A stretch of 32,887 nucleotides of DNA from Thermoplasmatales archaeon ex4572_165. Its GTDB lineage: Archaea > Thermoplasmatota > E2 > DHVEG-1. A program made the translations under genes and the position numbers. Location of the stretch: assembly GCA_002254885.1 (NCBI GenBank), contig NJDG01000005.1:1-32887 (forward strand), written 5' to 3'. The stretch's first letter is position 1; each line of letters opens with the position of its first letter. This document shows positions 1,385-11,539 of this stretch, piece after piece. A model generated the notes under the pieces. The model saw only the letters and a program-made list of their open reading frames with translations, did no database searches and had not been told where the DNA came from.

Positions 1385-2890
1385 ATGAAGTATAATATAA
1401 AAATTGAATTTTTCATAATTATCATTACGATGTTGATTGCTTTAATGGTAATTATATTTTTATTACTTCCACCAGATCCTTCAACTGTTGATTCAGATAA
1501 TGATGGAGTTATGAATGATAAAGATGTTTTTCCAAACGATCAATATGAATCAAATGACACGGATAATGATGGTGTTGGAGATAATTCAGATAAATTTATT
1601 TTCGATCCTTCTGCAAGTATCGATTCAGATGATGATGGATATCCAGATAAATGGAACGATGGAAAATCACAAAATGATAGTACATCAGATCCAAAATTGA
1701 TAATTGATGAATTTCCATATGATCCTAATGAACATGTTGATTCAGATGGAGATGGTGTTGGAGATAATTCTGATGCTTTTCCAAATGATTCAACAGAAAG
1801 CTTTGATTTTGATAAAGATGGAATTGGAAATAATAAAGATAAAAATCCAAATGTTGATTTGGGATTTAAGTTATATATTGACAAATTTGAGTTGACAAAA
1901 AATGTAGATATTTTACCAAGAGGTCAAATATATTTTGAGATAAAAATCAATGACGAGTTATATACTGTCCTTGATAATGATGGAGATTATTGGAAAGTAT
2001 GGTTATTACAGGAACAGTCAATTGGATTTACTCTAACAAAAGATATTTTAGATGACACAGATAGGAAAAATACCAGCATTGAAATTATCATGTATGATAT
2101 GGATTATTTCTTTAACGATGACATTGTAGACATACATTCTAACAATATTAAGACAAATCTGATGATAGTTATTGACCATGTCACAAATAAAGTTAATATT
2201 AATAACAATTCAAAAGGTCAAAAAGCAACGGTTTGGTTTACTGTTACCCTACCTGAATATATTGAACCTAATGAAAGCTATCAGCAAATTAACTATGATT
2301 GGTCATATAAAGGAAAATGGCATACAATTTCATTGAATATTTCAACAGATAAATATAATTGGTATACTCAAAGAGATGTCAATCGAAGTCCGCAACATAT
2401 TGGAAAAAATAAGATGGTTTCTTTTGTAACTGAAAATGATGAAGTTATTCAAGATTTAACTCTTAAAATACTTGAAATTGCAAATCAAAATAATTACAAT
2501 AACTCTGAAACAATTAATTTAATTTTATCTTTTATTCAAAAAAATATTGATTATAAAGAAGATATATTATCAAAAAATACTGAGGAATATTGGAAGTTTC
2601 CAATTGAAACCCTCGTTGAAAAAAATGGTGATTGTGAAGACAGCAGCATTCTCTTTCAGTCAATTATTAAAAATACGGATTATGATGTTATCATGCTTTT
2701 TTATATAATTGATGATGAAACAGGTCATCTAGCATCAGGTGTTTGTATTGATGAAAATATTAATGGTGACGTTATAGAATATAAAAATAAGAATTATTAT
2801 TATTGTGAAACTACCTCAAATGGTTTTGTTTTTGGCGTTAAACCTGAAAAGATTCCTGATGAACCTGAAATGATTATTGATATCCCATAA
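1385..2890 (+). CDS. Membrane-anchored protein with D-rich calcium-type repeats and a C-terminal transglutaminase-like domain
   Basis: The 501-residue protein starts with a short basic segment and one hydrophobic helix (about residues 9-29), so it is an anchored or secreted surface protein. Residues about 37-156 hold repeated DSDNDGV, DTDNDGVGDNSD and DSDGDGVGDNSD units, typical of thrombospondin type 3-like calcium-binding repeats. A beta-rich middle follows. The C-terminal part has GDCEDSS (Cys417), GHLASGV (His448) and YYCETT (Glu475). These sit where the Cys, His and acidic residues of the transglutaminase-like cysteine-protease fold are expected. The third residue is Glu instead of the usual Asp, as in some prokaryotic members. 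It may cleave or crosslink envelope proteins. It converges on leuS, with only 6 bases between the coding regions. Confidence 0.8.
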   Translation: MKYNIKIEFFIIIITMLIALMVIIFLLLPPDPSTVDSDNDGVMNDKDVFPNDQYESNDTDNDGVGDNSDKFIFDPSASIDSDDDGYPDKWNDGKSQNDSTSDPKLIIDEFPYDPNEHVDSDGDGVGDNSDAFPNDSTESFDFDKDGIGNNKDKNPNVDLGFKLYIDKFELTKNVDILPRGQIYFEIKINDELYTVLDNDGDYWKVWLLQEQSIGFTLTKDILDDTDRKNTSIEIIMYDMDYFFNDDIVDIHSNNIKTNLMIVIDHVTNKVNINNNSKGQKATVWFTVTLPEYIEPNESYQQINYDWSYKGKWHTISLNISTDKYNWYTQRDVNRSPQHIGKNKMVSFVTENDEVIQDLTLKILEIANQNNYNNSETINLILSFIQKNIDYKEDILSKNTEEYWKFPIETLVEKNGDCEDSSILFQSIIKNTDYDVIMLFYIIDDETGHLASGVCIDENINGDVIEYKNKNYYYCETTSNGFVFGVKPEKIPDEPEMIIDIP

Positions 2891-5899: not shown

Positions 5900-6417
5900 A
5901 TGGGTGAATATTTATCAAAATAAAATTCCTTAAGAAAAGAAATTTTCTGAATAATTCTTATGCAATTTCAGAAGAATTTACAACATTACCCGCACTAGCA
6001 ATTGTACTCTTTGGAATTATTATTGCTTTTTTACTTGTCGGACAAACTTATGGGGGCTATAATCAACAAACCTCACTTATTGATTCATTACATACAACAG
6101 AAAATCTATACAATAAAATAATTCAACCTTCAAATCCACTTGTTATACAAAGTGGCATTATTGATTATGAATCTTTAAATTCATCCGAATGCCTACAATT
6201 CGTTAAAGATTTACAAAAACAATATGCAACTATAGGATTGAATTTTTCTATTTATTTTACTTTTGAAAACAATTCATTTTGGTATCCGACAACTCCCGTA
6301 AATGCCAATCATAGAATTGCCGTCACCCATTCAATAGGTCTAGCAGTAAATATGGTCAATACAGTTGAATCAACTATCAGTATCGCTGTTTGGAATGTTA
6401 ATAATGAGATAAGCTGA
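5900..6417 (+). CDS. Pilin-like protein, first gene of the operon; no normal start codon or a frameshift
   Basis: An open frame from 5908 to the TGA at 6415-6417 encodes 169 residues but has no ATG, GTG or TTG near its beginning. It starts with a basic stretch (KIKFLKKRNFLNN), then AISEEFTTLPALAIVLFG, a hydrophobic helix of about 20 residues. It ends with ISIAVWNVNNEIS. Basic leader, then A-I-S-E-E, then helix is the layout of archaeal type IV pilin-like proteins, with a Glu near position +5 if processing follows the Tyr. The start is unclear. An ATG at 5900 opens MGEYLSK in another frame and hits TAA at 5921-5923; one extra A in the A-run at 5917-5920 would join it to the long frame. Otherwise a rare start such as ATC or ATA must be used, with GGTGA at 5903-5907 as ribosome site. 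The next gene begins 11 bases after the stop. The gene is real; the exact family is not certain. Confidence 0.7.
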
Positions 6418-6428
6418 AAGGAGAAAAA

Positions 6429-7751
6429 ATGAAAAAAATAATATCAATTAAACAAAATAATGGTGCAATAACTGTTATGTATGATACAATATTATTCCTT
6501 ACATTTATCTCATTAGCAGGAGCTGTTCTATTACCTGCATTTATCCCTTCTAATATCTCTTCTTCATCAGAAAAAGCAATTCATGATAACGCAGTTGATG
6601 AATCACTTCACTTGATGCTTATATCAACCAGTAAAGAATTCAATTATACAATTGGAAGCAGTATAATTCAGCCTTTTGCAGAAACAATGGGAATTAATAC
6701 AAGTCAAACAAATGGATTATATCACACTATTAGTCAATGGATACTTGGAAAACAACAATTTCATAAAACATTTGGTGAACATATTTCTGAAATGCTCTAC
6801 TGTATGCTTGAATTTCCAATTTCAAACAATGAAAGCATAAAACTTAATTTTTTAACATCAGATTATGAAACACAATTAAAAAACCATATCTCAGAATTGC
6901 TTGAAAATCAACTTAAAGAAACATATCAATTTCATCTAGTTTCAACTTGGAAACCTATAAAAAATCTTGAATTTGGTGGAACCTTTGAGATGGGAGAGAC
7001 TCCACCTAAAACAAATTGTTATGTTGCAAATCAAAAAATTAGCATTCCGTTTCTTCCAATTATAACAGCTTATGGCGAAGTATTTGTTTTATCTGAACAT
7101 TGGTTTTCTGAAAAGATTAATGAATATAATGATGAAATCCCAATTCTTATCAATATTTCAAATATCTCAGATAATCTCAGTAGACCAGATATTACAGAAG
7201 CTGAAAAAGATAAATATTATACATATCAAAATGAAAATATTTCTTCTCTTTTGTTAGGTATCATTTTTGATGGATTATATAATTCATCTCATAATCAATT
7301 GATTCCAGGTGTTCTTTCAATGATTTTGAAAAACTATTTAAATGATTTTTCAAAAAAAATTATTGATATGGGATCTAAACAGATAGAAAATACAACTGGT
7401 TATGCTTTTTCAAAATTAGATTCATTTTTTTTAAATTGCGATGATTCCATTACTGATTATTTTACTTCATATCTTAAAGACATCATTATTGAAAATGTTA
7501 CATCATATTTTTCAAATATTACTGTTGAGCTAACTAATTTATCTGATTATTTAGTTGAAGTTATCATATCAATTTTAAAGGAACAATTTCAACCATTTAT
7601 TGAATCATTCATTCTATCTGTTTTACCAATTATTCAATCCAATCTAGATTTTAATAATCTTATAGATGAATTGATTTCATTTATTTTCTCTCAGCTATCG
7701 CTTTCATCAGCTTCTGTTTCACTAACTATCTGGGAGGGAACATATCAATGA
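6429..7751 (+). CDS. Pilin-like or envelope protein with N-terminal membrane helix, function unknown
   Basis: A 440-residue protein. Its ATG is preceded by AAAGGAG (6417-6423), which overlaps the preceding stop codon. Residues 1-12 are basic. Residues about 14-38 form one hydrophobic helix beginning GAITVMYDTILFL, like the processed end of a pilin-like protein. The rest is extracellular in character: rich in Asn, Ser, Ile and Phe, with many N-x-S/T sites. The C-terminal third, about residues 330-430, has amphipathic helical repeats (SYLKDIIIENVTSYF, ELISFIFSQLSL). There is no catalytic motif. It overlaps the next gene by 4 bases (ATGA), implying translational coupling. It resembles, from memory and unverified, mid-sized proteins found in pilin-rich operons of other euryarchaea. 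Confidence 0.75.
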   Translation: MKKIISIKQNNGAITVMYDTILFLTFISLAGAVLLPAFIPSNISSSSEKAIHDNAVDESLHLMLISTSKEFNYTIGSSIIQPFAETMGINTSQTNGLYHTISQWILGKQQFHKTFGEHISEMLYCMLEFPISNNESIKLNFLTSDYETQLKNHISELLENQLKETYQFHLVSTWKPIKNLEFGGTFEMGETPPKTNCYVANQKISIPFLPIITAYGEVFVLSEHWFSEKINEYNDEIPILINISNISDNLSRPDITEAEKDKYYTYQNENISSLLLGIIFDGLYNSSHNQLIPGVLSMILKNYLNDFSKKIIDMGSKQIENTTGYAFSKLDSFFLNCDDSITDYFTSYLKDIIIENVTSYFSNITVELTNLSDYLVEVIISILKEQFQPFIESFILSVLPIIQSNLDFNNLIDELISFIFSQLSLSSASVSLTIWEGTYQ

Positions 7752-10504
7752 AAAAAAGAAGGTATTTGCTACCTGATTTATCTGCACGTATACCTTTTTC
7801 AATTCTTGGAATATTTATCCTTCTTAGCAGCTCCATAACAACAGTATATATTTCAGATTTTGATACTCAAAATACAGATCAATACATTACATCTCTGAAA
7901 GGGGCAGATATTGAACAATTACTGTATCGTGCTGATGCAGATATTGCATCTATGATAAATACAGTAGGATTGAAATCACTTCAAGAAATTGGAAAAACAC
8001 CGGTTATGGAGTCTTCTGATTTAACACAAACAGGCCAGGATGTCAATAAACTCAGATTAAAAAAATCAGTTGTTTCAATGTTGAATCAATTATTGATTTT
8101 GAATTTTAGAGGCGATAAATTCAATAATGGAAGATATGCAATTAATGTAATTATCAATCAATCGCAAACCTATCCAATTGAAGATCTAAATAATGTAAAG
8201 ATTACATCTATTAATATGACAGTTAACAGACCTATCCATATACCTTTAATAGGTCCAGATCAAACAGAAAATGGTGAAACGTATTGGAAAATTGATATTC
8301 TACTTAAATTTGAAATACGTTCGTTGCAAGATGATGAGGTGGTTGGAGAATACTATAAAGAAATTTCAAAAGTAATAACTTCTCGATATCCAATGTTATA
8401 TTATCTAACAGAAGAGTATAATACTACATTACAGTCACTTGGACCTTTTTGGGGTTTTGTTACTGCTGTATCTAACATATATTCATTGGCACGTGGATAT
8501 AAACATTATTCATCTGGAAAACCTATGAATGTTGTGGATAACAAACATCTTGCACCAATTATTAATGCAGGGTTATTGTTTGAACAAGGTCTTTCATTTG
8601 GAAGTATTGATCCAAACTCTCTTATTGATCTAATCTCAGAATGTAAAACAGCTTTTTTCAATAAAACATCGACTAACTCAATTGCTTCTTTAAACTCAAT
8701 AGATCAACCATCTTTTTCAATACCCAAATCTTGGTTTTCTACAATTCCATCAAATATTGCAAATGATGATGATATAAATACAACAATTGACCAATGCCCT
8801 CAAATAAATATCTCTGAAATTGCGTCAATGATAATTTATAACTATCAAACAATAGAAATTATTTTTAAGCAACTTTATCCTGAAAACATATATTCTACTA
8901 TTTTATCAAATCCAAGTTCTGAGGATATTAAAAATTGTATAAACAGCACTATTGATGACAATAATATCCTTTTAGAGGTTAATAAGAAAGACATATATTA
9001 CAATCTAAGCTCTTTGAATACTGTTAATAATTTAATTAATTTAACATATAATTCTTCATTTGAAACCTGTGTAATAAGAGATCCTGCCCCTAATGTTGAA
9101 ATTGGTCCACATGATGGATATCCAATTGATAATGGGACAACAAGTTGGGAAATCTCATCAACAATTTTAATAAATACAATTCAAAAACCTCCAAAAAATA
9201 ATATTTCTATTGATACAATATTGTATGAAGAAATATATGATATTATTTGGACTAGGTCACATCATTGGAGTAAAAAAGAAACATATACCTCAGGAAATAT
9301 TAGCTATACAAACTGGTCTTTTTTCTCTGCAACTGACCATAAAACCGAAGAAAATATATCATTACAAATCATTGTTAGAAAAATCAGCCCTATAAGTTAT
9401 GGTGGTTTTCCAATCAAGGATGTTTTTTATGAGAATGTAACATTAGATGACTTAAATTTAGAAGATACGCTTGATATATATTATGCTACTGTTTTTGACG
9501 TTAATACCGATGAATTATTAGAAAATGCAAATGGTTGTTATTATCCAAGGGGTATTAATGGTTCATATGGTTCTTGGGTCTATAATGATGCTTTGGAAAG
9601 TATCGATGAGATTTTAGATATTATTAGATCAATTAAACAAAATGAGTCGATTAATTCCTCTAGGTATAGTAATCCACTTACTCTTTTAGAAAAATCAAAG
9701 GAAGATTTAATTTTGAAATATGAAAATTTAATGCCTTTAATGATTGATGAAAATTCATATTTAAAGGATAATACATTTATTAGTGCAGGAAATAAAGCAG
9801 TTTATTGTGTTAGATCCTGGTTTGTTGATACTAGTTATGAATATATTATTAAAATGTTTGATGAGGCGATAGAAAAATTAGACTCCTCGTTTTCTGATAG
9901 TTTAGAAGAATATGGTTTTCAGCAGCAGGAAGATGTTTTATCTATGTTGGATGGATCGGATGAAGGGTCGTTTATTTCTGATTCATTTGCAATACCTTTT
10001 GGTATTCCTTTGGAGCTACAATCAGAAGAATCAGGAATGATGTTTGGATGGAATGAATCATTACATCTTTCTGTTAATCAATTTCCAAAATATCTTTCAC
10101 CATTTACAGAAGAAAAATATGAAGGGAAAGATGAATATTTCCTAAGCATTCGAAATACATGTATTCTTGGTCCAACAGGTATACCGATTCTTCCAATTAC
10201 TCCTGCAACACCTTGGATAGTAACATTAAATATTTGGCTTCTTTCCATTAGAGGGTCTTATGCTGAATTTATCCTAGCAGATGGTAATGATGAAACTATA
10301 CCTAACCCAATTTTTGGTCATGACTCTCAGGTAATGATTCGTGAAAATAAGGATATTCTTGATGAAAATGGGGATATTATTGGGATGAATACGCGGATTT
10401 CATTTGAATTTGATACTGTTTGTTTTTCTATTGTTCCATCTTTTGGAATGATGGTTGGAGATAAGGATGGAAATTTAATGGAGGAAGATGGATATGAAAA
10501 ATAA
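7748..10504 (+). CDS. Large N-terminally anchored extracellular protein of a pilin-like operon
   Basis: This is the largest protein of the operon, at 918 residues. GGGAGG (7732-7737) lies ten bases before the ATG, and the start overlaps the previous stop by 4 bases. A short basic head is followed by LSARIPFSILGIFILLSSS (about residues 16-34), a single membrane helix. A D-x-Q-N-T-D-Q segment and an Ala/Leu-rich region (YRADADIASMINTVGL) follow. The long ectodomain is Asn/Ser-rich with many glycosylation-type sequons. I see no enzyme motif, LPXTG-like signal or C-terminal anchor. The layout R-x-P-F-x-x-x-G followed by a helix recalls large proteins next to pilins in haloarchaeal clusters, but I cannot confirm homology. 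The last 17 bases overlap the longest form of the next gene. Confidence 0.78.
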   Translation: MKKRRYLLPDLSARIPFSILGIFILLSSSITTVYISDFDTQNTDQYITSLKGADIEQLLYRADADIASMINTVGLKSLQEIGKTPVMESSDLTQTGQDVNKLRLKKSVVSMLNQLLILNFRGDKFNNGRYAINVIINQSQTYPIEDLNNVKITSINMTVNRPIHIPLIGPDQTENGETYWKIDILLKFEIRSLQDDEVVGEYYKEISKVITSRYPMLYYLTEEYNTTLQSLGPFWGFVTAVSNIYSLARGYKHYSSGKPMNVVDNKHLAPIINAGLLFEQGLSFGSIDPNSLIDLISECKTAFFNKTSTNSIASLNSIDQPSFSIPKSWFSTIPSNIANDDDINTTIDQCPQINISEIASMIIYNYQTIEIIFKQLYPENIYSTILSNPSSEDIKNCINSTIDDNNILLEVNKKDIYYNLSSLNTVNNLINLTYNSSFETCVIRDPAPNVEIGPHDGYPIDNGTTSWEISSTILINTIQKPPKNNISIDTILYEEIYDIIWTRSHHWSKKETYTSGNISYTNWSFFSATDHKTEENISLQIIVRKISPISYGGFPIKDVFYENVTLDDLNLEDTLDIYYATVFDVNTDELLENANGCYYPRGINGSYGSWVYNDALESIDEILDIIRSIKQNESINSSRYSNPLTLLEKSKEDLILKYENLMPLMIDENSYLKDNTFISAGNKAVYCVRSWFVDTSYEYIIKMFDEAIEKLDSSFSDSLEEYGFQQQEDVLSMLDGSDEGSFISDSFAIPFGIPLELQSEESGMMFGWNESLHLSVNQFPKYLSPFTEEKYEGKDEYFLSIRNTCILGPTGIPILPITPATPWIVTLNIWLLSIRGSYAEFILADGNDETIPNPIFGHDSQVMIRENKDILDENGDIIGMNTRISFEFDTVCFSIVPSFGMMVGDKDGNLMEEDGYEK

Positions 10505-11168
10505 AAGATTTTTATTCATCATGATTTTATTGATACTTTCATGTTTTTTTTCTTCTGTAACAGCAAATAAACCTGCTACTTGTGGATATGGAACTTGTGA
10601 TACTTGGTTTAGTTTTGATGGGATAAACTGGCATAATACTACTTATCGTAACGCAGAATTACATCGTGGTGAATCCTTTTTTATTAAGACTATGATTTCT
10701 ACAACAAAACCTGATATTCATGTTTCTATCCGTTTTTTTGAAGTAGGAGTAAATAGTAATGATGATGCATCATTTGAGATTCTTGATGGATACGTTACAG
10801 GTATTATTAACCAAAATTTCAAGCAAATATATTCATTTGGAATTATTGACACACCTACAAGATTTGAAAAGATATGGAAAATAAAGGTTTGTGAGAATGC
10901 TTCTTGGTGGAATGCAACATCTCCTTTGAATATTTTTGTTGATTTTAATGAACAAATTGGTGAAGGATGGGGTTCTGAATGGATTGGTGATGAGATAAGT
11001 TATACAGTTGCCACGATTTATATTAAAAAATCAGTTTTTTCCCCAGTAGATAATTCAGAGCTAGTATCTGAAAATGTCAAATATTTATCATTAAATCATA
11101 TTATTATGATTTCAATATTAATTGGTCTAATATTTTTGTCATTTCTTCTAAAATTTAAAAAACATTAA
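10494..11168 (+). CDS. Secreted, C-terminally anchored protein of a pilin-like operon (possibly sarcinarray-like)
   Basis: I choose the ATG at 10494 because GGAGG at 10480-10484 lies nine bases before it; an ATG at 10488 would be only three bases away. The 224-residue product begins MKNKRFLFIMILLILSCF, a clear Sec signal peptide ending near VTA. The mature start has two close Cys (TCGYGTCDTWFSFDG), a possible disulfide. The body has ELHRGESFFIK and SPLNIFVDFNE, which recall the sarcinarray-type secreted domain of methanogens; this match is from memory. A C-terminal helix (about 200-219) and basic tail KFKKH would anchor it with the domain outside. It overlaps the preceding gene and closes the operon. 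It could be a minor subunit or adhesin. Confidence 0.75.
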   Translation: MKNKRFLFIMILLILSCFFSSVTANKPATCGYGTCDTWFSFDGINWHNTTYRNAELHRGESFFIKTMISTTKPDIHVSIRFFEVGVNSNDDASFEILDGYVTGIINQNFKQIYSFGIIDTPTRFEKIWKIKVCENASWWNATSPLNIFVDFNEQIGEGWGSEWIGDEISYTVATIYIKKSVFSPVDNSELVSENVKYLSLNHIIMISILIGLIFLSFLLKFKKH

Positions 11169-11197: not shown

Positions 11198-11539
11198 ATG
11201 CTGACTATTCATTATACTGGTCTCAAAAATGATGTAAAAGAATTTATTGAAAATATAAAATTAGTCTTAGATAATTTACCAAAAATAGATCAAGATAGGA
11301 TAAATGATGAATGTATGATATTTCTAATAGGTAAAACATATGGTTTTTCAGTGGGGGTTAAAAATAAACATTTGATCCTGTTAAATGTTAATGAAATGTT
11401 AAAAAATAAACTATCTATTAAAGAACAGCGTTTTATTATAGCTCATGAATTTGCTCATTTTATTTTGAAACATACTTATTCAAATGATGAAAATGAACAA
11501 GAAGCAAATGATTTAGTTTTAAAATGGAATATATGTTAA
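11198..11539 (+). CDS. Small ImmA/IrrE-type zinc metallopeptidase (M78-like)
   Basis: A 113-residue protein whose C-terminal half contains HEFAH (residues 83-87) in the context RFIIAHEFAHFILKH. An ENEQEAND segment follows (about 99-105), where Glu102 or Glu100 would be the third zinc ligand. This HExxH plus E..EAN arrangement defines the ImmA/IrrE family, which often cleaves or inactivates a partner repressor. The usual N-terminal or C-terminal helix-turn-helix is absent, and no repressor gene lies next to it, so the partner is unknown. It starts 29 bases after the pilin-like operon with no ribosome site, and it may have its own promoter. The C-terminus is short for the family, so the length is a little below normal. 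Confidence 0.8.
   Translation: MLTIHYTGLKNDVKEFIENIKLVLDNLPKIDQDRINDECMIFLIGKTYGFSVGVKNKHLILLNVNEMLKNKLSIKEQRFIIAHEFAHFILKHTYSNDENEQEANDLVLKWNIC

Follow-up and report, generated by a model that had tools for sequence, protein, structure and literature searches.

A conserved four-gene pilin-like operon of Thermoplasmatales archaeon ex4572_165 as a probable part of a split archaeal surface system

Results

Four genes in one operon

The window studied here is the entire contig NJDG01000005.1 (C24; 32,887 nucleotides) of Thermoplasmatales archaeon ex4572_165, a 1.2 Mb MAG that is 73% complete. It contains a four-gene operon, P1-P2-P3-P4 (Table 1), and the operon is real. As the initial annotation had described, the four frames lie on the same strand and are tightly packed: 11 bases separate P1 from P2, P2 and P3 share an ATGA overlap at 7748-7751, and GGAG-type ribosome sites precede P2, P3 and P4. 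The 11-base overlap claimed for P3 and P4 holds if P4 begins at the second ATG (10494), 9 bases downstream of GGAGG; a P4 beginning at 10488 would overlap P3 by 17 bases.

The claimed start of P1 at 5900 does not stand, as the ATG there is out of frame and runs into a stop after seven codons. The P1 frame opens after a TGA at 5905-5907 and has no ATG, GTG or TTG until 6238. Alignment with relatives, together with the GGGTGA site at 5902-5907, places the start near ATC 5914. Because the evidence points to this codon and none of the usual starts precedes 6238, the P1 start would be either non-standard or the product of a sequence error.

Table 1. Positions of the operon genes and associated features. 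Positions are those of the window unless a locus is named.
Feature	Position	Strand	Description
Probable P1 ribosome-binding site	5902..5907	+	GGGTGA, from sequence; 6 bases before the inferred start 5914
P1	5914..6417	+	small pilin-like protein of ~167 aa; ATC 5914 is the inferred start; stop 6415-6417
P2	6429..7751	+	440 aa, N-anchored, DUF7284-like
P3	7748..10504	+	918 aa, N-anchored, DUF7286
P4	10494..11168	+	secreted protein of 224 aa, or 226 if begun at 10488; has a C-terminal helix and is related to sarcinarray/MAST proteins
Zinc-peptidase-like protein	11198..11539	+	short; M78/M48 signature
Transglutaminase-like protein	1385..2890		secreted; calcium-binding-type repeats
Prepilin peptidase, own genome	L099:4768-5499		PF06847 5.1e-15, PF01478 1.9e-7

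The overall layout is as first proposed: a small pilin-like protein, two large proteins anchored at the N-terminus and a secreted one anchored at the C-terminus. P1, P2 and P3 each have a short basic or polar head followed by one strongly hydrophobic stretch, with 18-residue Kyte-Doolittle means of 3.0, 2.4 and 1.9, respectively. By inspection, P4 has a signal-peptide-like N-terminus, in line with the Sec signal ascribed to it, and a C-terminal hydrophobic helix.

Two further genes of the window deserve mention. Just downstream of P4 is a short zinc-peptidase-like gene; none adjoins P4 in the relatives read. Near the operon lies a gene for a secreted transglutaminase-like protein, and such proteins are also found near the operon at L078:8964-9608 and L071:14303-16609. 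Surface transglutaminases are linked to archaeal type IV pili by Makarova et al. (2016, PMC4858521).

The gene order is kept in other genomes

Repeated co-occurrence in other archaea had been set beforehand as a check, and the P1-P2-P3-P4 order is kept in at least 14 genomes: the window, L061, L062, L064, L066, L067, L071, L072, L073, L077, L078, L114, L116 and L117. Across these loci the proteins are 16-42% identical to those of the window, and conservation of the order at such identities argues that the operon is more than chance. The alignments with the window cover 10 relatives over the length of P1 and 11 sequences for P2. Two more loci, L065 and L074, agree with the order, P1 and P4 being translated, P3 taken from searches and P2 placed by position, and L110, which begins inside P2, carries P2-P3-P4. 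In the window, L072, L077, L078 and L117 a divergent leucyl-tRNA synthetase gene adjoins P1.

In two families, f7 and f10, the operon sits inside a larger cluster (L066, L064, L067, L116), with five genes upstream, four for small pilin-like proteins and one for a coiled-coil protein, and one pilin-like gene downstream. Also within these families, two loci of one genus, L069 and L070, have a P1-P2-P3 arrangement without P4. By size the gene after P3 was a candidate for P4 there; its translation is a different pilin-like protein, whose counterpart in related genomes comes after P4.

Two loci outside the class, L109 and L080, lack P4 but have the P1-P2-P3 triad. Their P2 is shorter (173-177 aa) and is recognised only by its position, N-terminus and C-terminal L-x-I-W motif; their P3 is larger (1,374 aa in L109) and matches DUF7286 weakly. 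At L108 a single P3-like protein stands alone.

Family assignments

The two large proteins had been described as having no recognisable domain. For the 918-residue P3 this is not so: it matches PF23957 (DUF7286) at E 7.1e-23 and 81.5 bits, over the curated cut-off of 27. For the 440-residue P2 the description becomes doubtful, as its match to PF23955 (DUF7284; E 1.7e-4, 22.1 bits) is below the curated cut-off of 27; the P2 relative in L066 is over it (E 5.8e-8, 33.4 bits). The P1 relative in the same locus matches DUF7285 (PF23956) weakly (E 0.004), and window P1 matched no family in a profile search of the window proteins. Profile comparison of P1, P2 and P3 with one another gave no detectable homology. 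No convincing relative came out of profile searches against PDB sequences, whose best matches (E 0.0004 to 0.01) were designed proteins and an antibody chain.

A P3 relative is present in 34 of the 80 genomes of the class, and named P3 relatives come from Thermoplasmata, Thermoplasmatota or 'Euryarchaeota' MAGs; a tblastn search with a P3 relative against plasmids gave no match. Among 14 control genomes, DUF7284 and DUF7286 match in the same two, Haloferax volcanii and Methanosarcina acetivorans. Since P2 and P3 belong or relate to families also found in these two, the system reaches beyond this lineage. The first interpretation of the operon is borne out in part, its layout and predicted co-occurrence holding. 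These families have no known function, so a match to DUF7284, DUF7285 or DUF7286 names the proteins and does not explain them. In a literature search no paper found names DUF7284-7289, with the sole exception of one table entry for the sarcinarray family.

The P3 relatives L061:8581-12156, L071:6670-10182 and L072:2253-5732 carry about 200 inserted residues immediately ahead of the conserved C-terminal domain. They also have the three best DUF7286 scores in the phylum search.

N-termini and predicted folds

Where the N-termini of P1, P2 and P3 relatives are aligned, G or A occupies position -1 relative to the hydrophobic segment. The class III (FlaFind-type) cleavage core is found in 8 of 11 P1s and, correctly placed, in three P2s. 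No P3 relative has it at the right place, +1 being R, and its canonical form is found in none of the window's own proteins.

Pilin folds had been another check set beforehand, and it gave a divided answer. The P1 model (mean pLDDT 79, from 8 sequences) has a helix at 15-69 followed by four strands, as a pilin would. P3 was poorly modelled overall (57), and the better part of its model, roughly residues 51-230, consists of helices and then four strands. For neither model did a fold search against the PDB give a match at E <= 0.001.

P4 and its anchoring

The aligned P4 relatives in L066, L064 and L078 are over the TIGR04209 (sarcinarray) cut-off, with a best E of 2.8e-19. Window P4 aligns to its relatives at 16-30% identity and has no confident family match, TIGR04209 included. 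Of the two control genomes with DUF7284 and DUF7286, the sarcinarray model matches only Methanosarcina acetivorans.

Some P4 relatives end in a sorting-type tail, and several have PGF-like tails. In agreement with this, archaeosortase A is present over cut-off in the own genome as well as in 7 of 8 relatives tested. At the C-terminus of window P4 and of P4 in the same-genus genome G001 there is no PGF motif; these proteins end in a plain hydrophobic helix.

Assembly machinery elsewhere in the genome

No ATPase or platform gene lies beside the operon, as had been noted: there is none among the window translations, and genome-wide T2SSE and T2SSF searches place none on the contig. The puzzle that was seen in this largely dissolves, as machinery is encoded elsewhere in the same genomes. 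Contig C3 of the own genome carries genes for a prepilin peptidase (Table 1), TadC1, TadC2 and a Pilin_N/LamG protein as well as a split ATPase gene; this rules out an orphan operon in a machinery-free genome. The ATPase gene (L099:7555-9241), the sole pilus-type ATPase found in this assembly, is broken and has a frame break; compared with its relative in G026, about 65 codons including Walker A are absent between 'AAYFW' and 'KTGKDIDMFDL'. This may be an assembly fault of the MAG or a real deletion. Intact ATPase/TadC sets are present in relatives, and same-genus genomes of higher completeness have more machines.

All 13 DUF7286-positive genomes in f7 and f10 have two T2SSF matches and no more, amounting to one TadC pair. 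Pilin genes are absent from the machine loci of G057 and G048. G004 is a single case with TadC1/TadC2 and LamG pilins on the same contig as the operon. Orthology of this machine to the single f7/f10 machine was considered and found weak, with TadC2 identities of 37-39% against 33% to the other type.

It should be kept in mind that the platform (T2SSF) is near-universal in the class, occurring in 74 of 80 genomes (33 of 34 with P3 and 41 of 46 without), so its co-occurrence with the operon is not discriminating. According to Makarova et al. (2016, PMC4858521), the ATPase/TadC modules of euryarchaea serve pilins encoded in trans, with exchange of pilin sets between machines. On that description, a pilin operon without a machine of its own would be expected within known biology.

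Very large pilins with lectin-like domains adjoin ATPase/TadC genes at several loci: L099:11227-13137 on the own C3 (Pilin_N 6.7e-8, Laminin_G_3 2.3e-19), L100:11484-17897 and L107, with proteins of 830-1,280 aa in G130 and G004. At L102:11631-15068 (G016:C1) a 1,145-aa pilin-like protein lies beside an ATPase/TadC set; near its N-terminus it has, by eye only, an apparent Hint/intein-like stretch (CFLAGTKVLMAD...VDVLVHND).

Discussion

We consider it probable that the operon is an accessory pilin/adhesin module. It would belong to a split archaeal surface system that resembles a type IV pilus and has its machine encoded elsewhere. For processing, polymerisation, subunit roles, adhesion and the machine used, we infer the following. 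P1, P2 and P3 would enter the membrane via their N-terminal helix. For P1 at least, the archaeal prepilin peptidase would probably do the trimming, and an ATPase/TadC machine from another locus the incorporation. P2 and the 900-residue P3 may be large minor subunits, for instance at the tip or base, with adhesive heads, and P4 a partner anchored at the cell surface, where it would fix or cap the structure. Its anchoring would be due to archaeosortase in relatives and perhaps to its own C-terminal helix in the window.

Several lines of evidence favour this module. The order recurs in 14 genomes with two more agreeing, P1-P2-P3 even outside the class, and the f7/f10 cluster adds small proteins with the same N-terminal layout. 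To these are added the G or A at -1, the cleavage core in most P1s and the helix plus four strands of the P1 model. The peptidase, TadC genes and Pilin_N protein of C3, the pilin-free machine loci of G057 and G048, the 13 genomes with one TadC pair and the trans-encoded pilins of PMC4858521 count for it as well. Against it count the missing canonical core in window proteins and P3s, the lack of PDB matches for the P1 and P3 models, the poor P3 model, the lack of detectable homology among P1, P2 and P3, the non-discriminating co-occurrence of machinery and the own ATPase lacking its Walker A segment.

The absence of the canonical core from P3 relatives and window proteins would also suit a static, non-polymerised surface complex, in which an uncleaved N-terminal anchor keeps P2 and P3 in the membrane. 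Together with P1 and P4 they would make up an assembly for adhesion or sensing, associated with the S-layer and in no need of an ATPase/TadC machine. The P4 relatives, which are archaeosortase-type anchored proteins, fit such a complex, as does the position of the operon apart from machine genes at nearly all loci read. However, further pilin-like genes surround the operon in two families, the G or A at -1 is kept in P1, P2 and P3, and the layout of P1 is that of a pilin; we regard a static complex as rather unlikely. Even less probable, to a marked degree, is a pseudopilus-like secretion or DNA-uptake device in which P1-P3 are pseudopilins that push or pull a substrate and build no adhesive filament. 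Each operon does hold several non-identical pilin-like subunits and P1 is a small helix-plus-sheet protein, but no substrate, channel or uptake gene is associated with the operon at the loci read, and archaea of this kind are not known to have an outer membrane for which a pseudopilus would be needed.

Beyond the accessory pilin/adhesin module preferred here, a bolder and doubtful proposal is that the operon represents a distinct, undescribed class of archaeal type IV filament. Such a class would be defined by the P1-P2-P3 triad, giant pilin-like subunits of 900-1400 residues and, in most, an archaeosortase-type MAST partner, and would occur in several Thermoplasmatota lineages, shared in part with Haloferax and Methanosarcina.

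Comparison with known systems

Set against the Pfam families DUF7284, DUF7285 and DUF7286, P3 passes the DUF7286 cut-off, P2 is related to DUF7284 and a P1 relative weakly to DUF7285, whereas window P2 is below cut-off and window P1 lacks a match. The likeness to the sarcinarray family MAST-domain proteins (TIGR04209, TIGR04204) is similarly uneven: P4 relatives pass TIGR04209, some with a sorting-type tail, while window P4 has neither the model match nor the C-terminal PGF motif.

A close parallel is with clade 2 of the euryarchaeal type IV pili (PilB3/PilB4 types) as presented by Makarova et al. (2016, PMC4858521). Those systems have pilin-like sets with class III-type N-termini, which the proteins of the operon resemble in part. 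They also have an ATPase/TadC module with one or two TadC genes, their pilins often being encoded in trans. In contrast, the N-terminal cleavage motif of the operon's P2 and P3 is mostly non-canonical. The main-text sections consulted do not mention the MAST proteins, or the 440- and 918-residue proteins, under any family name.

The operon brings DUF7284, DUF7286, the sarcinarray/MAST family and, less strongly, DUF7285 together in a single conserved module. As DUF7284 and DUF7286 match in Haloferax volcanii, a species open to genetics, it becomes directly testable what giant pilin-like proteins do in the surface structures of archaea. With a function that we infer, the operon appears to extend a known kind of system and to give context to unstudied families, most likely being served in trans by a type IV-pilus-like machine.
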